From a virus: 20,496 bases of DNA. Below the pieces are notes generated by a model. The model searched no databases, was not told the DNA's origin, and worked only from the letters and a program-made list of their open reading frames with translations. This document shows positions 4,069 through 16,748 of the stretch, piece after piece. The stretch spans positions 1 through 20,496 of the IMG/VR virus record IMGVR_UViG_3300030107_003683; one strand, 5' to 3'. Each line of letters begins with the position of its first letter. Within the stretch, counting starts at the first letter, position 1. Both the position numbers and the translations under genes were made by a program.

Positions 4069-4286
4069 ATTAACTCCGAATTAAGCCACATATCAAGTGC
4101 TTTTTCCCATTGCTGATAAGTAGCTTTATTATTATTATAATTAACCCATACTTGGTCAAATTCTTTCCAGTATCTATTTCTCATATGTCTTATGTGTCTT
4201 TCCATACTTTGATTGTTCCATTTATTTATATCCATATCTCCTAACCTATTCAAAAAGATTTTCTTTAGGTTCTTCGATGTATTCAT
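4065..4286 (-). CDS. Unknown protein overlapping the primase-helicase end
   Basis: The frame encodes 73 residues rich in Trp, Asn and Arg (WNNQSMERHIRHMRNRYW) with no known domain. Two starts are possible. The ATG at 4284-4286 lies inside the primase-helicase gene and has AGAGG eight bases upstream. The ATG at 4233-4235 would give 56 residues and follows the primase stop, but its AGGAG is too close for ideal spacing. I give the longer form because its ribosome binding site is better placed. The stop overlaps the next start by four bases. Confidence 0.5.
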   Translation of the reverse strand: MNTSKNLKKIFLNRLGDMDINKWNNQSMERHIRHMRNRYWKEFDQVWVNYNNNKATYQQWEKALDMWLNSELI

Positions 4287-5934
4287 AATATTTTCCTCTA
4301 ACTATATCGTATTTTAATTTAATGGGGGAATTTTGATTTGGCTTTCCATTTTTATACTGAAATCTAATCTTATGAACATGAATACCTGCATAATCTTCCT
4401 CATCACTTCTGTGTCTATGCACAGTAATTGCATTGTCACATTTATTAAACCAGTTAGCTGATCCAGAAATATCATATGGTGTAGGCACAACTGGTTTACG
4501 ATCAACCCCATTCTCCATCTTTCTAGGGTGTGCTACAACCCATATGTGCATCTCATTAACTTTGGAAAATGCACTTAGTTGAGCAAGTACCCTTGAAACA
4601 TATAAAGTCTCATTCTCACCATCTCCAAACTTATGTTCTAATGTATTCCACGGATCAATAATTAATCCATTTAAACCAAATCTAAAATTTAAAATCTTAG
4701 CTTGTTCTATAATGGATTCTATTGTAACGGAATCTTCCTGAGTTCCAATAAATTTTATATGCTCATTTAATATTTTCATTGAACTTCTGGCTGTATCTTC
4801 ATCTAACTTTTCATCTCCCCAAAATGGCTTTCCAGTAAATTTACCAACCAGTTTTAATAAGTGGTGTTCAACTGGAAAGTTCTCTGCTGAAAAAACACCA
4901 AACTTCCACCCATAAGATTGTATCATGTTAATCATAACAGAATCCATCCATTCAGACTTCCCCATATTTGGCACACCAGTTATAACAGTAACCTCTGATG
5001 GACTTACTAAATAATGAGGATCAACACTAGACCAACCAGTAGATAGACCTTGAACTTGTGGCTTTAATAATAAATCAATGGCATCATCTTCAATGTCTTG
5101 AATCATAACAACACCATCAATAGGATATGGATGTGCATTACTTACAATATCCTGAACCGCATCTTCTCCATGCTTTATAAGTACATCATTCATGTCCTTA
5201 CATCCATCTGGATATACCACTCTAAAGCATTTTTCCCTACCTATACGCCTAGATAATTCATCTCTCAGGTGTTTACCTGCCCCATCGGAATCTGTGCATA
5301 ATATAATAGTATTTGCACTCATTAAGTGATCTTCTGCCGATATAAGGTAGCTAAATTTTCTATCACTAGGTTTTGAATTTGGGGCGGTTGCACCATCTGG
5401 AACAGATACAACATTCATAAATCCAGATTGAACTAATGCTAGTGCATCCATCTCGCCCTCAGTTATAATAATTGTCTCCATTCCTTTCATGTGGTCAAAT
5501 CTATAAAAACATTTTTCAGCATTTTTAGATTGCATAAATTTCTTATCAGATGTCCTAGATTTTATATTAACAACTTCACCATCCTTATAAAAGGGAAATT
5601 GTATCCATCTATTGTTATATCCAATTTTTTCAGAATCTACAACAACCCTAGAAATTCCACGATCCTCAAACCATTGATAGACTTTTTCAGGAATATTTGT
5701 TTTTGGCGGATCAGGTAATGTCGGTATTGGAACTACATCAGAAAAGTTATGCTCCTTAACTTTTTTCAATGTTCCCTTCCACCCACAATGATGGCAATTC
5801 CAAACTCCCTCATCTATATTAACAGACAAGCATGGATCAGATGTTTTCTTTCTACTACTAGAACACTTTGGGCATTGTATTTTTTCTTGCCCAGATGTTC
5901 CCTTTACAAAAATCCCATTCTCCTCAAATGTCAT
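4246..5934 (-). CDS. Bifunctional DNA primase-helicase (T7 gp4-like)
   Basis: The 562-residue protein has the three-part layout of replicative primase-helicases. An N-terminal zinc-binding region has CPKC at 21-24 and CHHC at 47-50. A TOPRIM primase core has IIITEGEMDAL at about 155-165 and the metal-binding TDSDGAGK at 214-221. A C-terminal RecA-fold helicase has Walker A GVPNMGKS at 320-327, the Walker B aspartate in LIIDPW at 424-429, and a VVAHPRK segment at 466-472. It should lay RNA primers and unwind the fork. I place the start at ATG 5932-5934, behind GGGAGAT, rather than the in-frame ATG 12 bases upstream. The initiator gene ends immediately before it. Residues 57-65 are encoded by a degenerate copy of a palindrome repeated elsewhere in this block. 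Confidence 0.9.
   Translation of the reverse strand: MTFEENGIFVKGTSGQEKIQCPKCSSSRKKTSDPCLSVNIDEGVWNCHHCGWKGTLKKVKEHNFSDVVPIPTLPDPPKTNIPEKVYQWFEDRGISRVVVDSEKIGYNNRWIQFPFYKDGEVVNIKSRTSDKKFMQSKNAEKCFYRFDHMKGMETIIITEGEMDALALVQSGFMNVVSVPDGATAPNSKPSDRKFSYLISAEDHLMSANTIILCTDSDGAGKHLRDELSRRIGREKCFRVVYPDGCKDMNDVLIKHGEDAVQDIVSNAHPYPIDGVVMIQDIEDDAIDLLLKPQVQGLSTGWSSVDPHYLVSPSEVTVITGVPNMGKSEWMDSVMINMIQSYGWKFGVFSAENFPVEHHLLKLVGKFTGKPFWGDEKLDEDTARSSMKILNEHIKFIGTQEDSVTIESIIEQAKILNFRFGLNGLIIDPWNTLEHKFGDGENETLYVSRVLAQLSAFSKVNEMHIWVVAHPRKMENGVDRKPVVPTPYDISGSANWFNKCDNAITVHRHRSDEEDYAGIHVHKIRFQYKNGKPNQNSPIKLKYDIVRGKYYEYIEEPKENLFE
5742..5767. repeat. Degenerate palindromic element inside the primase-helicase
   Basis: On the minus strand this 26-base stretch differs from the matching stretch around the copy at 9835-9857 at only two positions, both in the centre or second arm. 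It encodes KKVKEHNFS just after the primase zinc-binding region, against KKVKELNFS in the papain-fold protein. Confidence 0.6.
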
Positions 5935-5935
5935 T

Positions 5936-6730
5936 TTATCTCCCATTTAAATATTTATGTTGAATGTTCTGAAACTTAGTAAATCCATTTTCAGATTTTT
6001 TTCTCAGTGACTTTATGCTGAGTAAAGTCTTGCCCCAAAACTTATCATGTACTGCCCAGCTTATAACATTCTTAATATCATCATACTCAAAACCATCTTT
6101 TTTAATTAAATCATAAAGTATATTTATACTGCCATTTACAATATCAAGGTTATCATCCCAATTTTTTTCTATTATGTTTGGGTATCTCGATTCTTGTATA
6201 TTATAAAAATCTTTTACAATTTTATACAAAGCATTTTTCTGCTTTCCGCTGATCTGATTATTTAGCTTAGTATCTTTAGAATTGCCATTGGTATATACTT
6301 TTCTTATACTATTATTATTATATAATAATGATTGGGTATTTTGACTAAGCATATTGCCATTTAATTGTAATTCACCCTCGTTATTATTATTACCCCCTAC
6401 GTTATTTTGCACATAGGGTAATTTAGAATTGTTATTTAGATATAGGCAATTTTGTATAGGGGTAATATATCTTTTCTTAAATTTTTTAGTATTTTCTTCG
6501 TACTCATATACTATGTTTATAAACCCATATTTTCTCAAGCTAGATATACTTCTTGAGGCTGTGTCTTTGCTCATGTCAAACACCCTGCTAAAATAAGAAT
6601 TGTTCTTAACACAAACCCCATCTTTTTCTAAGCAAGCCATAATCTCTGCAAAAATTAATTTGGCATTTGCTGTTAATTCAGTATGGTATCTCACATCACT
6701 AGGCATAACTGCATAATAACTACTTTGCAT
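5936..6730 (-). CDS. Winged-helix replication initiator-like protein
   Basis: The 264-residue protein opens with YYAVMPSDVRYHTELTANAK and a winged helix-turn-helix at about residues 15-80 (NNSYFSRVFDMSKDTASRSI, then LRKYGFI). This is the arrangement in phage replication initiators of the lambda O / helix-turn-helix 36 type. Residues 95-165 are a low-complexity asparagine-rich linker. The C-terminal part (about 165-264) contains FWGKTLLSIKSLRKKSENGFTKFQ, typical of the end of such initiators. It probably recognises the origin and recruits the replicative helicase encoded directly downstream; its last bases abut the primase-helicase ribosome binding site. A stable hairpin lies just upstream at 6751-6782. 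Confidence 0.7.
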   Translation of the reverse strand: MQSSYYAVMPSDVRYHTELTANAKLIFAEIMACLEKDGVCVKNNSYFSRVFDMSKDTASRSISSLRKYGFINIVYEYEENTKKFKKRYITPIQNCLYLNNNSKLPYVQNNVGGNNNNEGELQLNGNMLSQNTQSLLYNNNSIRKVYTNGNSKDTKLNNQISGKQKNALYKIVKDFYNIQESRYPNIIEKNWDDNLDIVNGSINILYDLIKKDGFEYDDIKNVISWAVHDKFWGKTLLSIKSLRKKSENGFTKFQNIQHKYLNGR

Positions 6731-9580: not shown

Positions 9581-9796
9581 TTACCCCCTTTTACCAATGT
9601 TTTTAATTACAGAAACCTCTAGCGTAATGTCTTCTATTTCTTCAATTTCTTCTTGACTTATCTTATGCCCGAATAGATCTTGTAAAATATATTCAAATTC
9701 AATTCCGTTTTTTCTTTCAAAGTCTGATTTATATAAAGTTATTTCCTCTTTATAAAAACCCTCTTTTAATTCCTTTGCTCTTTTTTTACTTAACAT
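9581..9796 (-). CDS. Unknown acidic small protein, 71 residues
   Basis: The product is charged and helical (KKRAKELKEGFYKEE, then QEEIEEIEDITLEVSVIK), without a known motif. The ATG at 9794-9796 follows AAAGGGGG. The palindrome at 9835-9857 lies about 40 bases upstream, within the 3' end of the papain-fold gene. Function is unknown. Confidence 0.6.
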   Translation of the reverse strand: MLSKKRAKELKEGFYKEEITLYKSDFERKNGIEFEYILQDLFGHKISQEEIEEIEDITLEVSVIKNIGKRG

Positions 9797-9808
9797 TTTA
9801 AACCCCCT

Positions 9809-10315
9809 TTAAAATTTTGAAAAATCAAATTTTGAAAAGTTAAGTTCCTTAACTTTTTTATTTGATTCAACTTTAATTATTTCTGTTATCGGTTTTTTTC
9901 TGTCGGCTGTCCAATCATGCACAATATTATTTTTAACGGCTAAGACATGGTTTTTAACCCCTAGTAAATAGTTGCCCTTTGGTAAATAGTTGTCAAAATT
10001 ATTTACTGTTAGTCCGGTTCTTGAATTAACAAAACACAAGGATTGATTTTCTCTATTTTTCCAAGTCCATGTATTTTTATTAATGTATGATAGTTTATAG
10101 GTGTATAGCTTAAAGCCGTATTTTTCAGCCAAATTCCGCATTAAATTCTTGTAGGTGTACCACCCCAAGCCTTTACCATTTTTCCGCCCATTTTGGGCGA
10201 AATACGAATGAATTTCGTTATAGTCTTTATTGAATATGATACTAGCACTAATCACAGTACAACAGTTATTATCATTCTCAAAAGCTATCTTTTTAATATC
10301 TTTATAATTTTGCAT
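9809..10315 (-). CDS. Papain/C39-like cysteine-peptidase-fold protein (putative)
   Basis: This 168-residue protein has an N-terminal NNCCTVISASIIFNKDYNEI segment with Cys18 and Cys19 heading a helix, followed by NGRKNGKGLG. Near the end it has GNYLLGVKNHVLAVKNNIVHDW, with His123 and Asp134. A cysteine at a helix start, a histidine after a strand and a following Asp form the triad pattern of C39-like papain folds; similar short proteins occur in many phages, usually without known substrate. Residues 153-161 are encoded by a palindromic repeat. The gene is immediately downstream of the hammerhead ribozyme, which would leave a 22-base 5' leader containing the ribosome binding site GAGGGG. Confidence 0.5.
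   Translation of the reverse strand: MQNYKDIKKIAFENDNNCCTVISASIIFNKDYNEIHSYFAQNGRKNGKGLGWYTYKNLMRNLAEKYGFKLYTYKLSYINKNTWTWKNRENQSLCFVNSRTGLTVNNFDNYLPKGNYLLGVKNHVLAVKNNIVHDWTADRKKPITEIIKVESNKKVKELNFSKFDFSKF
9835..9857. repeat. Palindromic element, copy in the papain-fold gene
   Basis: A perfect inverted repeat with 10-base arms, AAAAGTTAAG and CTTAACTTTT, around a 3-base centre. It lies near the 3' end of the papain-fold gene, where it encodes part of KKVKELNFS, and about 40 bases upstream of the next start. The same core GTTAAG-N3-CTTAAC occurs at 1290-1306, 7650-7666 and 11465-11487, with a degenerate copy at 5742-5767. Confidence 0.8.
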
Positions 10316-10333
10316 TTATTCCCCTCATTGATA

Positions 10334-10387
10334 CCTAGACCTTTGCGGTTTCGGGGGGATCAATGAAAATCCCCCCTCATCAGTAGG
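10334..10387 (-). ncRNA. Type I hammerhead self-cleaving ribozyme (candidate)
   Basis: Read on the minus strand, every conserved part of a hammerhead is present in order. Stem I 5' strand is CCUA (10387-10384), then core CUGAUGA (10383-10377). Stem II is GGGGGGAU (10376-10369), loop UUUCAUUG, and AUCCCCCC (10360-10353). Core GAA (10352-10350) leads into stem III, ACC (10349-10347), loop GCAAA, and GGU (10341-10339). The cleavage nucleotide is C at 10338, and stem I 3' strand is UAGG (10337-10334). The invariant pairs A15.1-U16.1 and G10.1-C11.1 are kept, and the cleavage triplet is GUC. Stem I could extend after a three-base bulge (AUA 10393-10391 with UAU 10333-10331), giving the irregular stem I that natural hammerheads use for docking with loop II. 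It starts right after the stop codon of the 205-residue gene and ends just before the next ribosome binding site. Cleavage is predicted between 10338 and 10337. Confidence 0.9.
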
Positions 10388-10389
10388 AT

Positions 10390-11007
10390 TTATAAGCCGT
10401 TTTTTTCTATGCTTTCAATCACAGCTTTTAAAGATTCAAAATCATACATCTCTAAATTTTTTGAATCTGCTTTCGTACCATTAAATAAACCCTCTCTTTT
10501 TTCTGATCGCATCCATTTTAATAATCTTTCTTCTAGTCTGTCAGCTTTCTGTTCCTTGTACATTCTCACAAGTCTATATTTTCCGATATCAGTCTCATTA
10601 AAATTATCAACGTATTTCCCCTCTTCATTTTCAACCATTGGCTTATTTACTTTTTTTAATGTTGCTGTCATTGTCTTGTGATCGTCTTCTAAAATTGCCA
10701 ACTGTGTAGGCTTTTCCTTTACTAGGGTTTGGATCTGATTTTTTACGAACCTCTTTAACTGTTTTCTAACTTCTAATAATTCTTGAAGTTTCTCGCCTTT
10801 GATTTTATCGTCTTTTGAGGTGTTCATGATATTGTCAAATTTTTTAGTTAACTGGGTTTCGTTGTTTTCATCCGCATGATGTAAATCTCTAGTAATTACA
10901 TCTGTTACCGATTTACTTTTCTCAACCAATACCAGACCATCATTCAAAACTTGATCAATTTCTTTTTTGGTTGGTTTTTTCATTGTTACGTTAGTGTTAC
11001 TTTTCAT
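10390..11007 (-). CDS. Unknown charged coiled-coil-like protein, 205 residues
   Basis: The product is strongly charged and mostly helical, with likely coiled-coil stretches (KGEKLQELLEVRKQLKRFVK around residues 70-90, then MYKEQKADRLEERLLKWM around 149-166). No domain is recognised. The start ATG at 11005-11007 follows GAGGAG with rather long spacing. Its stop codon TAA at 10390-10392 is immediately followed by the hammerhead ribozyme and would be part of an extended stem I, so ribosomes finishing this gene could disturb ribozyme folding. It lies near the front of the leftward block, which suggests early, abundant expression. Confidence 0.65.
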   Translation of the reverse strand: MKSNTNVTMKKPTKKEIDQVLNDGLVLVEKSKSVTDVITRDLHHADENNETQLTKKFDNIMNTSKDDKIKGEKLQELLEVRKQLKRFVKNQIQTLVKEKPTQLAILEDDHKTMTATLKKVNKPMVENEEGKYVDNFNETDIGKYRLVRMYKEQKADRLEERLLKWMRSEKREGLFNGTKADSKNLEMYDFESLKAVIESIEKNGL

Positions 11008-11011
11008 GGTT

Positions 11012-11368
11012 TTATTTCTCCTCTATTAGTGTTCTTAAAAAATTGTTTAGTAGTTTTTTTCTTTCTTCCTTTGCTTGTTCATAGTTTAAACCACTATTAA
11101 ACGCTGTTAATTTTGAAGCTACTGTGTCGTATTCTCTGACTGTTTTATAGTCTATTCTTTTTCCTATCGGTGAATATCCGGTCGAAATTATCACCCTTTG
11201 ACCATTGACACTTAATTGATAATAATCACACGCCCAGCCATTGACACCGCTTGAATATGCGAAAGGGTTTTCATCCCTTAATAGATACTGTAGTTCACAA
11301 TACCCGACAGCATACAAGTTACCCCTTGTATTTTCTCGGATTTGTTTCTTGGTTGTTTTTAACTTCAT
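11012..11368 (-). CDS. Unknown protein, first gene of the leftward block
   Basis: The 118-residue product contains GNLYAVGYCELQYLLRDENPFAYSSG followed by NGWACDYYQL and ISTGYSPIGKR. I have a vague memory of this pattern from short phage proteins of unknown function. The open frame reaches an ATG at 11425, but that start lacks a ribosome binding site. The ATG at 11366-11368 has GAGGAG about 12 bases upstream, similar to the next gene, so I prefer it. If the longer start is used, 19 polar residues are added. A small hairpin (ATGGC/GCCAT, 11387-11400) abuts the ribosome binding site. The stop is four bases before the next start. Confidence 0.55.
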   Translation of the reverse strand: MKLKTTKKQIRENTRGNLYAVGYCELQYLLRDENPFAYSSGVNGWACDYYQLSVNGQRVIISTGYSPIGKRIDYKTVREYDTVASKLTAFNSGLNYEQAKEERKKLLNNFLRTLIEEK

Positions 11369-11464
11369 TTTGTTTTGTTTCTCCTCATGGCTAACGCCAT
11401 TGTTATTTAAATCAATATTTAACATGATGAAAATCTTACACCCTTTAGGTTAATAATCAAGTAA

Positions 11465-11487
11465 AAAAGTTAAGTTTCTTAACTTTT
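11465..11487. repeat. Palindromic element, copy upstream of the leftward block
   Basis: Arms AAAAGTTAAG and CTTAACTTTT flank the centre ttt. It is the only copy in the large intergenic region and lies 40 bases upstream of the first possible start of the leftward block, where a promoter operator or leader hairpin would be expected. Confidence 0.8.
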
Positions 11488-11530
11488 ATTTACTCCTTAT
11501 ATATGGAAGAGGAAAAAACTCTGGTTTTTT

Positions 11531-12097: not shown

Positions 12098-12736
12098 ATG
12101 AGTGTTGTCCTACCAGATAAATTAAAGCCAGCTATGGGTATTGCCATAGATATGTTAGTTACTGATCCAGAGGCTAAAATGAAAGATGTAGCTGAGAAAT
12201 CAGGTGTTAATGTTTCTACTTTGCGAAGATGGATGAAAGATCCTGAGTTTGTAGAGGTGTTCTATCAGAAGTATATGGTTACTTTTGGTTCTAGGTTGCC
12301 AACTGTGCTTAATAGTATGGTTCGTGAGGCTGAGGCTGGCAATGTGCAGGCTGGTAGGTTGGTTTTGGAACATTCAGGTAAACTTATCAAACGAGTTGAG
12401 GTAAACAATCATCAAAGTCCCTTTGAAAAGTTCCTTAATTCACAAGTATCAGACATGGAAGAGGTTGAGGTTTTAGAAGCTGACTATGAGGATATTGAGG
12501 TTTTACCTCAGCGACCTATTGTGCCAGAAAAACCCCCTACTAAAAAAGAGTTATCTACTCAACAAAAGAAAGCAGACAGAAAGAATGAAAAGCGTAGAAA
12601 GGCTAGGCGTTGGAGACAGAGAGCTGAAGCCGTAGGTGTTGCAAGACCAAATAAAGGCAGGCAAACCCCAGCACAAAGAAAGGCTTGGCAGGAACAAATA
12701 ATAAAAAGAGAAAAAGCACTCAATATTGCTTTTTAA
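12098..12736 (+). CDS. Terminase small subunit (putative)
   Basis: The 212-residue protein has an N-terminal helix-turn-helix at about residues 27-50 (KMKDVAEKSGVNVSTLRRWMKDPEF). A helical oligomerisation-like region follows (LNSMVREAEAGNVQAGRLVLEHSGK, about 73-97), then an acidic stretch (EEVEVLEADYEDIEVL). The C-terminus is very basic (KNEKRRKARRWRQR). This is the layout of small terminase subunits that bind the packaging site and regulate the large subunit. It is on the opposite strand from the large terminase and portal, which is unusual. A consensus promoter ends nine bases before the ATG, so translation may be leaderless; an ATG 12 codons in is an alternative start. The last 17 bases overlap the convergent zinc-ribbon gene. 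Confidence 0.65.
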   Translation: MSVVLPDKLKPAMGIAIDMLVTDPEAKMKDVAEKSGVNVSTLRRWMKDPEFVEVFYQKYMVTFGSRLPTVLNSMVREAEAGNVQAGRLVLEHSGKLIKRVEVNNHQSPFEKFLNSQVSDMEEVEVLEADYEDIEVLPQRPIVPEKPPTKKELSTQQKKADRKNEKRRKARRWRQRAEAVGVARPNKGRQTPAQRKAWQEQIIKREKALNIAF

Positions 12737-13568: not shown

Positions 13569-14849
13569 TTAAGATTGCTCTGGTTGCTGAGGAGCTTCTA
13601 AGTTATTTACAGCTTTGTTTCCCTCTATAATCATTTGAGCTTGCTCTACTGTAAGATCTTTATTGTCACGAACCATTATTTTAGCTCTAGTTGTAAGATT
13701 GTTTTGAATGTCAAACTGATCTTTTAGTATCTGATCCTGTACTGTTTTAGGATAATCAATCTCTTCAAAGTCTACTCCGAATTGTTCTGGCAGTTCAATT
13801 CCATTGTATCCTGCTATTACACGCTCAACATTATAAAAATCTTGCTCATACATTCTCCAGAGAGCAATATCGTCATAGTAATCTTCTTTCCTCTCCATAT
13901 CCTTAATCATTAGTGATATTCCACTAGGAACTTCACCACCAGACTCAGCAAACTGTATCCATAAGTGATTATTGATAGCTACAAGCTCCATTTGGAACTT
14001 TATATTCTCTATAGCTTCCATAATGTTGCCTGATGGACTTGTTATATTATAAGCACCATCTTCCCCCATATCTAAGATCGTATTAGAACCTGCCCTGAGC
14101 ATACTTTGATCTGCTCTAAGTCCTGTAACCCACGGCTGACCAAACATATTAAACCTCATACCTAAGTTCATTTCAGTAAGAGCTATATTTACCTGCTCAT
14201 TGCAATTTACAATATCTGATGCTCCTTCAACAAAAAAAGAGTCTATTTGATCTTCTCTATGAGTAAAAACAAAAGGAATAATCCCATAAGGATTTTCAAT
14301 TTCAGTTAGCATTTTACCTTCTGCATCCATCATTCCATAAGACTCATTGCTCCAATACTCCCACTGCATATTATCTGTATTTGATAGATCTGCTGTGCTG
14401 TGCAGTAAAGGGTAAACAATAGAACTAGGAACAAATGGATCTTCGTCAAAGTATGCCTCAAAATAATAAATAGGTCTATAGTCAAAAAACTCACCTTTCC
14501 AGTGAACTCTGTTTGCAACAGTTCCAAGCAACCTAGTCATTCTTTCTGAATGTTTCATGCGAACATTTTTTGTTGGTATTAATTGCTCATAGCGTTCCGT
14601 AGCATCTCCTACGTTTCTTTTTGCTCCTAAACTGTAAATACGGCTTATTTTATTAATAAATTTTCTGGTAAAGTTGGTTACACTTGGTGGTATTTCCCTA
14701 AAAGCATCTCCGTTAAAGTAGTTGGTTATATACTGCTCTACTGAAACGCCAGAATAGTAATCTAAGTGCTTTCTTATTTCATTTCTTCTAGCATGGGAAA
14801 TCATTAGCTTTGTTTCTAGCAATTTGTCTTTTAACACTCTTTGAATCAT
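13569..14849 (-). CDS. Portal protein
   Basis: The 426-residue protein follows the large terminase directly and has the features of a phage portal, the dodecameric ring through which DNA enters the head. An N-terminal helical part (RRNEIRKHLDYYSG) leads to a wing region (YGIIPFVFTHREDQ near residue 190). Next comes the SDIVNCNEQVNIALTEMNL helix near 215. A long C-terminal helical stem includes AESGGEVPSGISLMIKD. The acidic, Gln-rich end (APQQPEQS) is typical. The start overlaps the terminase stop as ATGA and has AGAGGAT upstream. The length is at the short end for portals. Portal on the opposite strand to the capsid gene is unusual. Confidence 0.8.
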   Translation of the reverse strand: MIQRVLKDKLLETKLMISHARRNEIRKHLDYYSGVSVEQYITNYFNGDAFREIPPSVTNFTRKFINKISRIYSLGAKRNVGDATERYEQLIPTKNVRMKHSERMTRLLGTVANRVHWKGEFFDYRPIYYFEAYFDEDPFVPSSIVYPLLHSTADLSNTDNMQWEYWSNESYGMMDAEGKMLTEIENPYGIIPFVFTHREDQIDSFFVEGASDIVNCNEQVNIALTEMNLGMRFNMFGQPWVTGLRADQSMLRAGSNTILDMGEDGAYNITSPSGNIMEAIENIKFQMELVAINNHLWIQFAESGGEVPSGISLMIKDMERKEDYYDDIALWRMYEQDFYNVERVIAGYNGIELPEQFGVDFEEIDYPKTVQDQILKDQFDIQNNLTTRAKIMVRDNKDLTVEQAQMIIEGNKAVNNLEAPQQPEQS

Positions 14850-16159
14850 CTTTGAATCCTCTTCATTTCGTTATTTCTCATAGGAAACCTGTTAATAATA
14901 AAATACCTAAAAGCATCATTTCCGTGGTCATGCGTACCATCTTTTAATGGTTCTTCCTTTATTGGTTTCCCATCTTCACTTTCAGGGTATCTGTACTCCT
15001 CAAAATCTTCTATCAAATCTTTGCATTTTCTATCCACATGAACTCTCCTTACTCCATCTGCACTTTCAAAAAATCCTCTAGTATATGCAATACTAGCAAC
15101 AAGGTTTCTGCTCATTCTGTCCCTTGCAGATATAATCCTAATGCCACTACGTCTAAAAATCTCCATATCTCCAGCACCACTTTGACCTTGAACATTGCTA
15201 CCAGCAGGATCGCCATAGTAAGACATAATAGGGTAGCCTTTGGTTTTAATCATTTTAATTAAATCTTCTGTTTTAATGTTTTGCTTGTGTAGGATAGAGT
15301 CAAAAACACGAATATGCTCTAGTTCTCCATCCCAATAGGTTTGCAAAAATAAAACTGCTGGCATTCTAAAGCCAAAGTCAATAGAACAATATGTGGGTAA
15401 ATTTTGATCGTATGGAAAATCACCAGTATCCAAATCTCTGTTAAAATCCCAAACTTTACCCTCAAATACAGAAAACTCTGCTCCGAACTCTTGACCAAAA
15501 AGTTCTTTTGACATATTTCTCTTTCTTTCTATGATAGCAGGATCACTCAACCCCAGTGGGAACTCATGTTCATTTATCCACGATGGCGATGTATGGCTTT
15601 CCCACATTGGATCATCTGCACCTAGTTTAAACAAATCATATATCCAGTTTCTGCCTTCTGGTGTTGTTATAAAAATAACTTTACCTTTTCTACCTGCTAC
15701 TGTTGGGGATAGATACATATCCCAAATTTTTTTATTCATCTTGGCAACCTCATCAATTACCAAGAGGTCTAAACCTTCACCAACAAGACTTGATGGATTG
15801 TCTGCCGACATTCCTTCTACGATTGTACCCCATTTAAAACGAATGTACATATCTTTTTCTGATGCCTTATCTATATCATCTGCATGACCAACAACCATAC
15901 GTTGCCAAATCTCACGAAATATCAACCTAGCTTTCTTGTATGACATCCCCACTACCCAAATTCTTTTGTTTGGCTGAGATGCTACATAAGTAGCTTCCAT
16001 TGCACTTGCCCAAGTCTTACCAAATCTACGCCCACATACTACCACTTGAAATCTGGCATCTTGTTTTGTAGGGTAATGCAAAGGGATTTGCCCACTATGA
16101 GGTTTGTAACCTAAGTAGTCAAACCATTTTTTCTTAAATTCGTAATTTTTTTCTTGCAT
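14846..16159 (-). CDS. Terminase large subunit (ATPase and nuclease)
   Basis: The 437-residue protein has a Walker A-type VVCGRRFGKT (40-49), Walker B LLVIDE (132-137) and the coupling motif ITTPEGR (164-170) of the packaging ATPase. The C-terminal RNase H-like nuclease has acidic residues D261 (SIDFG), D317 (YGDPAG) and the terminal DHGNDAFRY (411-419). It drives DNA into the prohead and cuts it. It is transcribed leftward from an extended -10 promoter at 16181-16189, giving a leader of only about 15 bases with no strong ribosome binding site. It is followed by the portal with a 4-base overlap. All key motifs are intact. Confidence 0.9.
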   Translation of the reverse strand: MQEKNYEFKKKWFDYLGYKPHSGQIPLHYPTKQDARFQVVVCGRRFGKTWASAMEATYVASQPNKRIWVVGMSYKKARLIFREIWQRMVVGHADDIDKASEKDMYIRFKWGTIVEGMSADNPSSLVGEGLDLLVIDEVAKMNKKIWDMYLSPTVAGRKGKVIFITTPEGRNWIYDLFKLGADDPMWESHTSPSWINEHEFPLGLSDPAIIERKRNMSKELFGQEFGAEFSVFEGKVWDFNRDLDTGDFPYDQNLPTYCSIDFGFRMPAVLFLQTYWDGELEHIRVFDSILHKQNIKTEDLIKMIKTKGYPIMSYYGDPAGSNVQGQSGAGDMEIFRRSGIRIISARDRMSRNLVASIAYTRGFFESADGVRRVHVDRKCKDLIEDFEEYRYPESEDGKPIKEEPLKDGTHDHGNDAFRYFIINRFPMRNNEMKRIQR

Positions 16160-16216: not shown

Positions 16217-16244
16217 CAATTCATAACTCACTGAAGAGGTAAAA

Positions 16245-16748
16245 ATGTCTGAAGAAACGACCATCGAGCCAGATGTAAAACAGGAAAACGTCACTAAAGA
16301 CGAAAACAATGTACCAATTTCAAGATTAAATGAAGTTATTTCAGAAAGAAATGAACTCCGTGAAATGCTTGAATCATTTAAAAGTAAGGAGGAAGAAGGC
16401 AAAAGAGCAAAGCTTCAAGAAGAAGAAAAATGGCAAGAACTCAATGCAGAGCTTGTCAAACAACTTGATTCCTATAAGCCCTATAAGGACAGATGGGATT
16501 CAATGGATAAAAGACTTCGTGAAGGTGCTTTAGCTCAACTTCCTGAATCAAAAAGAGAAAAATTTGCCAATGTTGATACCGAAGTTCTTTTAAGTATTGT
16601 TGAAGAGTTTACAGAAATAGAAAAAGTAAATCCACCAGACACTAAAGGAACAATACCTACTGAAAAAATAGGCGATTGGACTGAAATGTCAAGTGAAGAA
16701 CGTAGAAGAAACTGGGGTACGATATTGGAGTCATACGTTAAAAGGTAA
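16245..16748 (+). CDS. Capsid scaffolding-like protein
   Basis: The 167-residue product is acidic and dominated by coiled coil (RLNEVISERNELREMLESFK, then EEEGKRAKLQEEEKWQEL). It has an unstructured N-terminus and a basic C-terminal end (ERRRNWGTILESYVKR). An acidic helical protein with a basic C-terminal helix directly upstream of the major capsid gene is the standard layout of phage scaffolding proteins, which template prohead assembly and then leave. The ATG follows GAGGT. The intergenic gap to the capsid gene is only five bases. The assignment rests on composition and position, because scaffold proteins diverge quickly. Confidence 0.7.
   Translation: MSEETTIEPDVKQENVTKDENNVPISRLNEVISERNELREMLESFKSKEEEGKRAKLQEEEKWQELNAELVKQLDSYKPYKDRWDSMDKRLREGALAQLPESKREKFANVDTEVLLSIVEEFTEIEKVNPPDTKGTIPTEKIGDWTEMSSEERRRNWGTILESYVKR

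Follow-up and report, generated by a model that had tools for sequence, protein, structure and literature searches.

A pseudoknotted type I hammerhead motif between two phage genes and its placement behind the upstream stop codon

Hundreds of bacterial hammerhead ribozymes were described by Perreault et al. in 2011, many of them near prophage integrase genes (PMC3088659). According to the main text of that study, pseudoknots link stems I and II in all three hammerhead types and hammerhead clusters flank single genes in prophages; three clusters cleaved in vitro, one cloned in E. coli cleaved in cells, and the cutting of long phage transcripts was proposed (PMC3088659). Pseudoknotted hammerheads of bacteria and prophages, and the idea that they cut transcripts, have been known since that report. 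The same text describes HHphage of the haloviruses HF1 and HF2, viruses of extreme halophilic archaea, which is found 13 nt ahead of a start codon and for which a transcript 5' end was mapped within 3 nt of the cleavage site (PMC3088659). The theta ribozymes of gut phages are a further small self-cleaving class in phage genomes, and in the portion of the source compared here they are HDV-like and tied to tRNAs (PMC10879173). A 2017 review noted the link to phages and called the role of prokaryotic hammerheads an open question (PMC6155905).

Here we describe a hammerhead motif in a 20,496-nt stretch of viral DNA (IMG/VR record IMGVR_UViG_3300030107_003683), which we call the window. Minus-strand genes predominate in the window; the plus strand carries genes at 12098-12736 and from position 16245 onward. 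A terminase large subunit gene (14846-16159, minus; about 30% identical to the best listed cultured phages) and a primase-helicase gene (4246-5946, minus; PHROG 239) point to a tailed phage. No tRNA was found in the window, in contrast to the setting of the theta ribozymes.

The window's motif resembles the hammerheads of the 2011 study in its core, three stems, pseudoknot, position round phage genes and proposed transcript cutting. Its family is set apart from them by a stem III of 2-4 bp, a stem II of 8 bp and a pseudoknot of conserved register that joins loop II to the 3' tail, a difference judged from the main-text description, so that the family may have members there (PMC3088659). It shares with HHphage the position shortly upstream of a start codon; in that text, however, HHphage is a core variant, structurally analogous to HHmeta, which needs high Mg2+ (PMC3088659), whereas the window has the consensus core.

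Anatomy and identity of the motif

A complete type I hammerhead motif occupies the minus strand at 10387-10334, between two minus-strand genes, and reads CCUA-CUGAUGA-GGGGGGAU-UUUCAUUG-AUCCCCCC-GAA-ACC-GCAAA-GGU-C↓UAGG. Stem I pairs CCUA (10387-10384) with UAGG (10337-10334), the first bases of the 3' product, and is invariant in the five distinct sequences of the family. It is followed by the catalytic core CUGAUGA (10383-10377), whose N7 is A in the diverged relative L002, and by an 8-bp stem II, in which GGGGGGAU at 10376-10369 pairs with AUCCCCCC at 10360-10353; loop II, UUUCAUUG, lies inside this stem II element (10376-10353). The core nucleotides G12, A13 and A14 together with A15.1 lie at 10352-10349, as placed by the sequence and by a covariance model, and stem III (10349-10339) has three base pairs (A-U, C-G and C-G; ACC/GGU) closed by the loop GCAAA, which is one base shorter in L002. 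C17 is at 10338, and by the general hammerhead rule the predicted cleavage site, GUC↓U, falls between 10338 and 10337, leaving a 22-nt leader before the ATG at 10315.

The CUGANGA core, GAAA and NUH are therefore present in the order of a type I hammerhead, with three stems round the core (4, 8 and 3 bp for stems I, II and III) and an open stem I. In addition, we noticed a putative 6-bp pseudoknot that is absent from the original prediction, in which UCAUUG of loop II (10366-10361, minus) would pair with CAAUGA downstream of stem I (10330-10325, minus) and would provide the contact of loop II with the stem I side that characterizes type I. A Shine-Dalgarno-like GAGGGG (10326-10321, minus) overlaps the 3' strand of the pseudoknot by 2 nt; this overlap occurs in the window, L001 and L002 only, and the site lies further downstream in L003, L078 and L132. 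The conserved positions, the stems, their coordinates and the 22-base leader, as read from the minus strand, all agree with the original prediction.

A descriptor search, with at least 4 bp in stems I and II and at least 3 bp in stem III, returned a single type I motif from the window, and 10.2 Mb of random sequence having the window's dinucleotide frequencies yielded none. By descriptor, no type II or type III motif was found in the window. A second loose match at 16231-16292 (plus) was rejected; by eye, it has no paired stem II. We also built a covariance model from L003, L078 and L132 only, excluding the window, on a MAFFT alignment that misplaces one gap in L132. With this model the site scores 58 bits (E 1.8e-17) and the next-best site in the window 8.7 bits (E 1), and a chance origin is very unlikely, as had been argued from the letters of the motif. 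The model also matches L002 (53 bits), a second ribozyme in L132 (26.8 bits) and loci of a wider class among 40 chosen from those retrieved, and it gave no match at E ≤ 1 in any of 13 control loci (nine from a pattern with a changed core and four stemless chance matches).

At curated cut-offs, no Rfam family matched the window. The Rfam type I model, recommended earlier as a check, is RF00163 (Hammerhead_1, gathering score 34 bits); it gave no match in the window's record and was equally silent on control genomes. At a lax cut-off, with 231 bases searched, the best match was RAGATH-1-hammerhead (RF03152) at the same place, with 19.6 bits (E 0.42) against a gathering score of 56.3 bits, and this family gave no match at its cut-off in any of four records, the window's included. 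The 5' flank, core and site align with the RAGATH-1-hammerhead model, while the window's stem II is longer and its stem III much shorter than those of the model. The silence of Rfam means little because all 20 related hammerhead loci tested also miss the cut-offs, and with the Hammerhead_1 model a canonical one reaches 22 of the 34 bits required.

Some properties count against the motif. Stem III has only 2-4 bp in the window's family, the stability of the predicted fold is no better than that of many shuffles (z -1.41), and folding prediction puts a structure other than the hammerhead at the lowest energy (-25.1 versus -19.4 kcal/mol, with the pseudoknot not counted). Since the hammerhead fold without the pseudoknot is 5.7 kcal/mol less stable than the best fold, the pseudoknot probably matters.

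Relatives and compensatory changes

Two other contigs keep both flanking genes. L001 is 99.8% identical to the window over 3000 nt and carries the same ribozyme. In L002, 52 substitutions separate the upstream gene from that of the window (566 of 618 bases are the same; codon positions 1/2/3 carry 13/4/35 changes), the 205-residue protein is 93% identical, and 461 of 510 aligned bases of the downstream gene are the same. Of the 54 aligned ribozyme positions, L002 departs from the window at two, with A in place of U at N7 and one base missing from loop III, and the 18 leader bases compared are all identical. Relatives that break the core while keeping the flanking genes had been named in advance as evidence against a ribozyme; L002, the only diverged relative found with both genes, retains it.

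More distant members of the family lie beside other genes in L003, L078 (whose ribozyme is that of L129) and L132 (whose ribozyme is that of L135). A scan with fixed spacing returned 11 contigs, seven carrying the window's family and four being matches without stems. The second hammerhead of L132 (764-840, minus), also present in L135, has CCAU/AUGG as stem I, an additional U after A9 and ahead of stem II, and 7 bp of complementarity between loop II and the tail (UUAGCUA/UAGCUAA). The narrow ribozyme pattern had no match in the genome-contig collection, and the ribozyme regions of the window and of L125 had no DNA match in the phage collection.

Covariation was assessed in five distinct sequences, of which those of the window and L002 are near-identical. 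Over 20 pairs, all 100 cells are paired and nine pairs have changes on both sides, five of the eight in stem II and four of the six in the pseudoknot. The comparison of relatives that had been proposed for stems I-III therefore gave compensatory changes for stem II. Neither stem I nor the two counted pairs of stem III vary in the window's family, so that covariation is no test of these stems there.

The pseudoknot keeps the same register in all five distinct sequences, with 30 of 30 cells paired, against at most 55% for a slid partner, and its four pairs changed on both sides compare with 1.8 in shuffles. The pairing was picked after the sequences had been viewed, and the number of different pair types does not exceed that of shuffles, 242 of 500 of which reach it. 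Taken singly, and with G-U pairs permitted, two of five tails pair better than their shuffles at P < 0.05 (P = 0.004 for the window, 0.10 for L003, 0.18 for L078, 0.50 for L132 and 0.02 for the second L132 ribozyme), and swapped AT-rich tails often pair with loop II equally well. It is the register-conserved changes that make the case for the pseudoknot.

A wider hammerhead pattern matched at least 120 viral contigs, and the same pattern with one core base changed matched nine in the whole collection. The rarity of such motifs had been overstated in the original prediction, as phage and prophage hammerheads also appear in the 2011 main text (PMC3088659). The loci, numbered L001-L138, comprise 148 matches, 126 of them distinct, and 111 pass a stem filter. 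Among the 126 distinct unfiltered matches, at least 4 bp are found in stem I in 120, in stem II in 114 and in stem III in 115, the pattern itself fixing 2, 1 and 2, respectively. These unfiltered figures weigh more than those below because the filter itself demands stems. The filter is conservative, since some of the 15 failing loci (for example, L099 and L118) match the model of the window's family. In an alignment of 28 sequences with chosen stem lengths, taken from the 111 already stem-filtered loci, 99.8% of 420 cells pair and 117 are changed on both sides, with slid controls at 28-38%; pairs with double changes number 9 versus 8.1 in shuffles. Among these filtered loci, the pairs of stems I and III vary yet stay paired. 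Twenty of the 111 loci lie inside an open frame of at least 100 codons on either strand, which counts against the class.

In the wide class, the presence of a complement between loop II and the tail depends on the length of stem I. It exceeds expectation where stem I has 5 bp (found in 20 of 33 loci, with 8.5 expected) or 6 bp (in 21 of 62, with 12.4 expected), shows little excess at 4 bp (5 of 8, 3.6 expected) and none at 7 bp (0 of 8, 0.4 expected). A general pseudoknot between loop II and the tail across the wide class was therefore not retained.

From these comparisons, we regard 10387-10334 as a real hammerhead motif that belongs to a small family with a register-conserved predicted pseudoknot. 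Its identity as a hammerhead is strongly supported by the independent covariance model, the double changes that preserve pairing in stem II and in the pseudoknot, and the retention of the motif in the diverged L002.

Placement behind the stop codon and possible roles

In the window, the TAA of the upstream gene (10392-10390) ends 2 nt before the 4-bp stem I and does not overlap it; an overlap with a possible extended stem I had been suggested. An in-frame stop ends 2 nt before stem I in all five distinct ribozymes of the family, with L001 representing the window. In the second L132 ribozyme, a TAA at the 2-nt spacing closes a frame of six codons, and an 83-codon frame ends 6 nt before stem I.

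This placement recurs in the wide class. Among the 99 of 111 loci that have an upstream open frame of at least 60 codons, the stop codon lies flush with stem I, at -1 to +2 nt, in 52 and within 5 nt in 67; in an antisense control put through the same procedure, the counts are 1 and 2 of 59. Flush stops amount to 58 of 113 without the stem filter and to 36 of 70 with one locus per downstream-protein cluster; the 52 comprise 31 UAA, 20 UAG and 1 UGA. Flush placement was observed in 48 of 63 usable loci, where a ribozyme free to take any position between stop and start would give 18.2 (sd 3.3); these 63 come from 93 loci with both values, after stops deeper than -1 or more than 80 nt away and leaders shorter than 16 nt were dropped. 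In 22 of the 99 loci, the stop ends deeper inside the ribozyme.

On the other side, the distance from cleavage site to start has a median of 30 nt in 105 loci when the choice of start favours Shine-Dalgarno sites, and 28 nt in 101 loci under a rule blind to them. With the blind rule, a Shine-Dalgarno match of at least 4 bases precedes 66 of 101 starts, compared with 368 of 2220 random ATGs.

What looks new here is the placement directly behind the upstream stop codon. The phrase 'stop codon' does not occur in the 2011 paper, and a stop-codon-flush rule is not described in the parts of it that were compared (PMC3088659). Such a rule was not found in the open-licence literature searched and may be in print elsewhere. 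It makes the role of phage hammerheads directly testable and offers a concrete lead on their function.

The best-supported function for the window's motif is mRNA processing between the two genes, as suggested by its strand, its position and the pattern in other phages. We assign a probability of about 0.8 to the reading that a pseudoknot-locked type I hammerhead cuts a polycistronic message between the 205-residue gene and the downstream gene, a member of PHROG 3754. After cleavage by a type I hammerhead, the ribozyme body remains with the upstream RNA, the downstream RNA receives just the 3' strand of stem I, and the products have 2',3'-cyclic phosphate and 5'-hydroxyl ends, which many host RNases use poorly. 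In a polycistronic transcript, where we infer both co-transcription and cleavage, the ribozyme would cut between the two genes; its body would stay on the upstream message as a GC-rich structured 3' end with a 2',3'-cyclic phosphate, and the downstream message would begin with a 5'-hydroxyl and a 22-nt leader carrying the ribosome-binding site. The likely use of this cut would be to turn one transcript into separate messages with ends that host RNases attack poorly, and the new ends may stabilize both messages. As the pseudoknot strand lies in the downstream product, separation of the products would be expected to require the opening of both the 4-bp stem I and the 6-bp pseudoknot.

The flush stops in 52 of 99 loci are also compatible with translational control, which we consider possible, with the odds clearly against it. 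A ribosome at the flush stop would cover stem I and CUGAUGA, so that cleavage would await a gap in upstream translation and would report on the use of the upstream gene. The excess of flush stops over the antisense control and over free sliding, its persistence without the stem filter and after dereplication, and the constant 2-nt spacing in the window's family all agree with such gating; however, the flush position could equally reflect genome compaction on the 5' side or keep the ribozyme clear of the ribosome-binding site. The 22 stops that end deeper inside the ribozyme are not predicted by gating alone, and the longer frame ahead of the second L132 ribozyme, with its 6-nt gap to stem I, weakens it slightly. 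If gating is true, these hammerheads would be scissors gated by translation termination, separating the downstream gene only when upstream translation pauses, and many phages and genes with no relation to one another would share this arrangement.

It is unlikely that the ribozyme is a selfish passenger, spread by phage recombination and of no benefit. The 101 downstream proteins behind hammerheads fall into 79 clusters, and the commonest PHROG, an ATPase, accounts for only 4 of 101; the ribozyme is therefore not tied to one gene, as a hitch-hiker would not be, but the strand, the spacing to the start codon and the pairing are all maintained.

The prospect that cleavage acts as a switch, freeing a Shine-Dalgarno sequence that the uncut fold hides, appears fainter still. 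The 2-nt overlap of the pseudoknot strand with GAGGGG in the window would fit such a switch, and predicted accessibility rises upon cutting from 0.42 to 0.67 in L001, and rises in 46 and falls in 7 of 96 loci. The mean gain over these 96 loci, in folds computed without the pseudoknot, is however 0.076, less than the 0.093 obtained with shuffled upstream sequence, and L078 shows no gain (0.43 and 0.43). Unmasking of the ribosome-binding site is therefore unsupported as a general role.

Finally, we give very little credence to a non-catalytic GC-rich stem II hairpin serving as a terminator or stability element with a chance core match, as the stem II hairpin does dominate the predicted fold but no terminator was called at the site (9700-11500 searched), random sequence yielded no such motif and the independent covariance model matches.

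Flanking genes and further hammerhead loci

The upstream gene (10390-11007, minus) is an open reading frame of 205 aa, and its protein has no Pfam or PHROG match and no relatives in the phage collection. The downstream gene (9809-10315, minus; start at 10315) encodes 168 aa and belongs to PHROG 3754, which is of unknown function. Its Cys/His pattern is one that we take to resemble papain-like proteins; the papain fold once proposed for it drew no support from Pfam (no match) or from solved structures (none better than E 0.17), and the single-sequence fold has too low a confidence (pLDDT 49).

A relation between the hammerhead and PHROG 3754 is at most a weak lead. This PHROG occurs in 5 of the 100 hammerhead contigs searched. 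Its gene immediately follows a hammerhead in the window, in L002 and in L089 and does not do so in L046, a comparison that leaves out the contig of L130. L089 encodes a relative of the 168-residue protein (3-140, minus; 43% identity across 44 aa) that is truncated where the contig ends; its start lies 16 nt past the cleavage site of a hammerhead belonging to a different class. No CUGANGA was present within 160 nt upstream of PHROG 3754 in four cultured-phage records, the other two of six carrying the same phage names. Other genes behind hammerheads encode DUF932 (three loci) and an RNA polymerase, an ArdC-type antirestriction domain and MazG (one each).

Six loci (L031, L048, L100, L113, L122 and L130) carry two distinct hammerheads separated by some 250 to 700 bases, and a different gene follows each of them. 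We also observed type I motifs with a GUA site in the cultured pelagiphages HTVC019P (L166, near 2005), Jormungand (L167, near 2005) and HTVC131P (L168, near 2003), a count of three that leaves out four further Pelagibacter and 11 Streptomyces records. These motifs lie upstream of genes for a MarR-like regulator, an integrase and an RNA polymerase, and only protein genes are annotated in the stretches examined. The three cultured pelagiphages offer living systems for tests of function.
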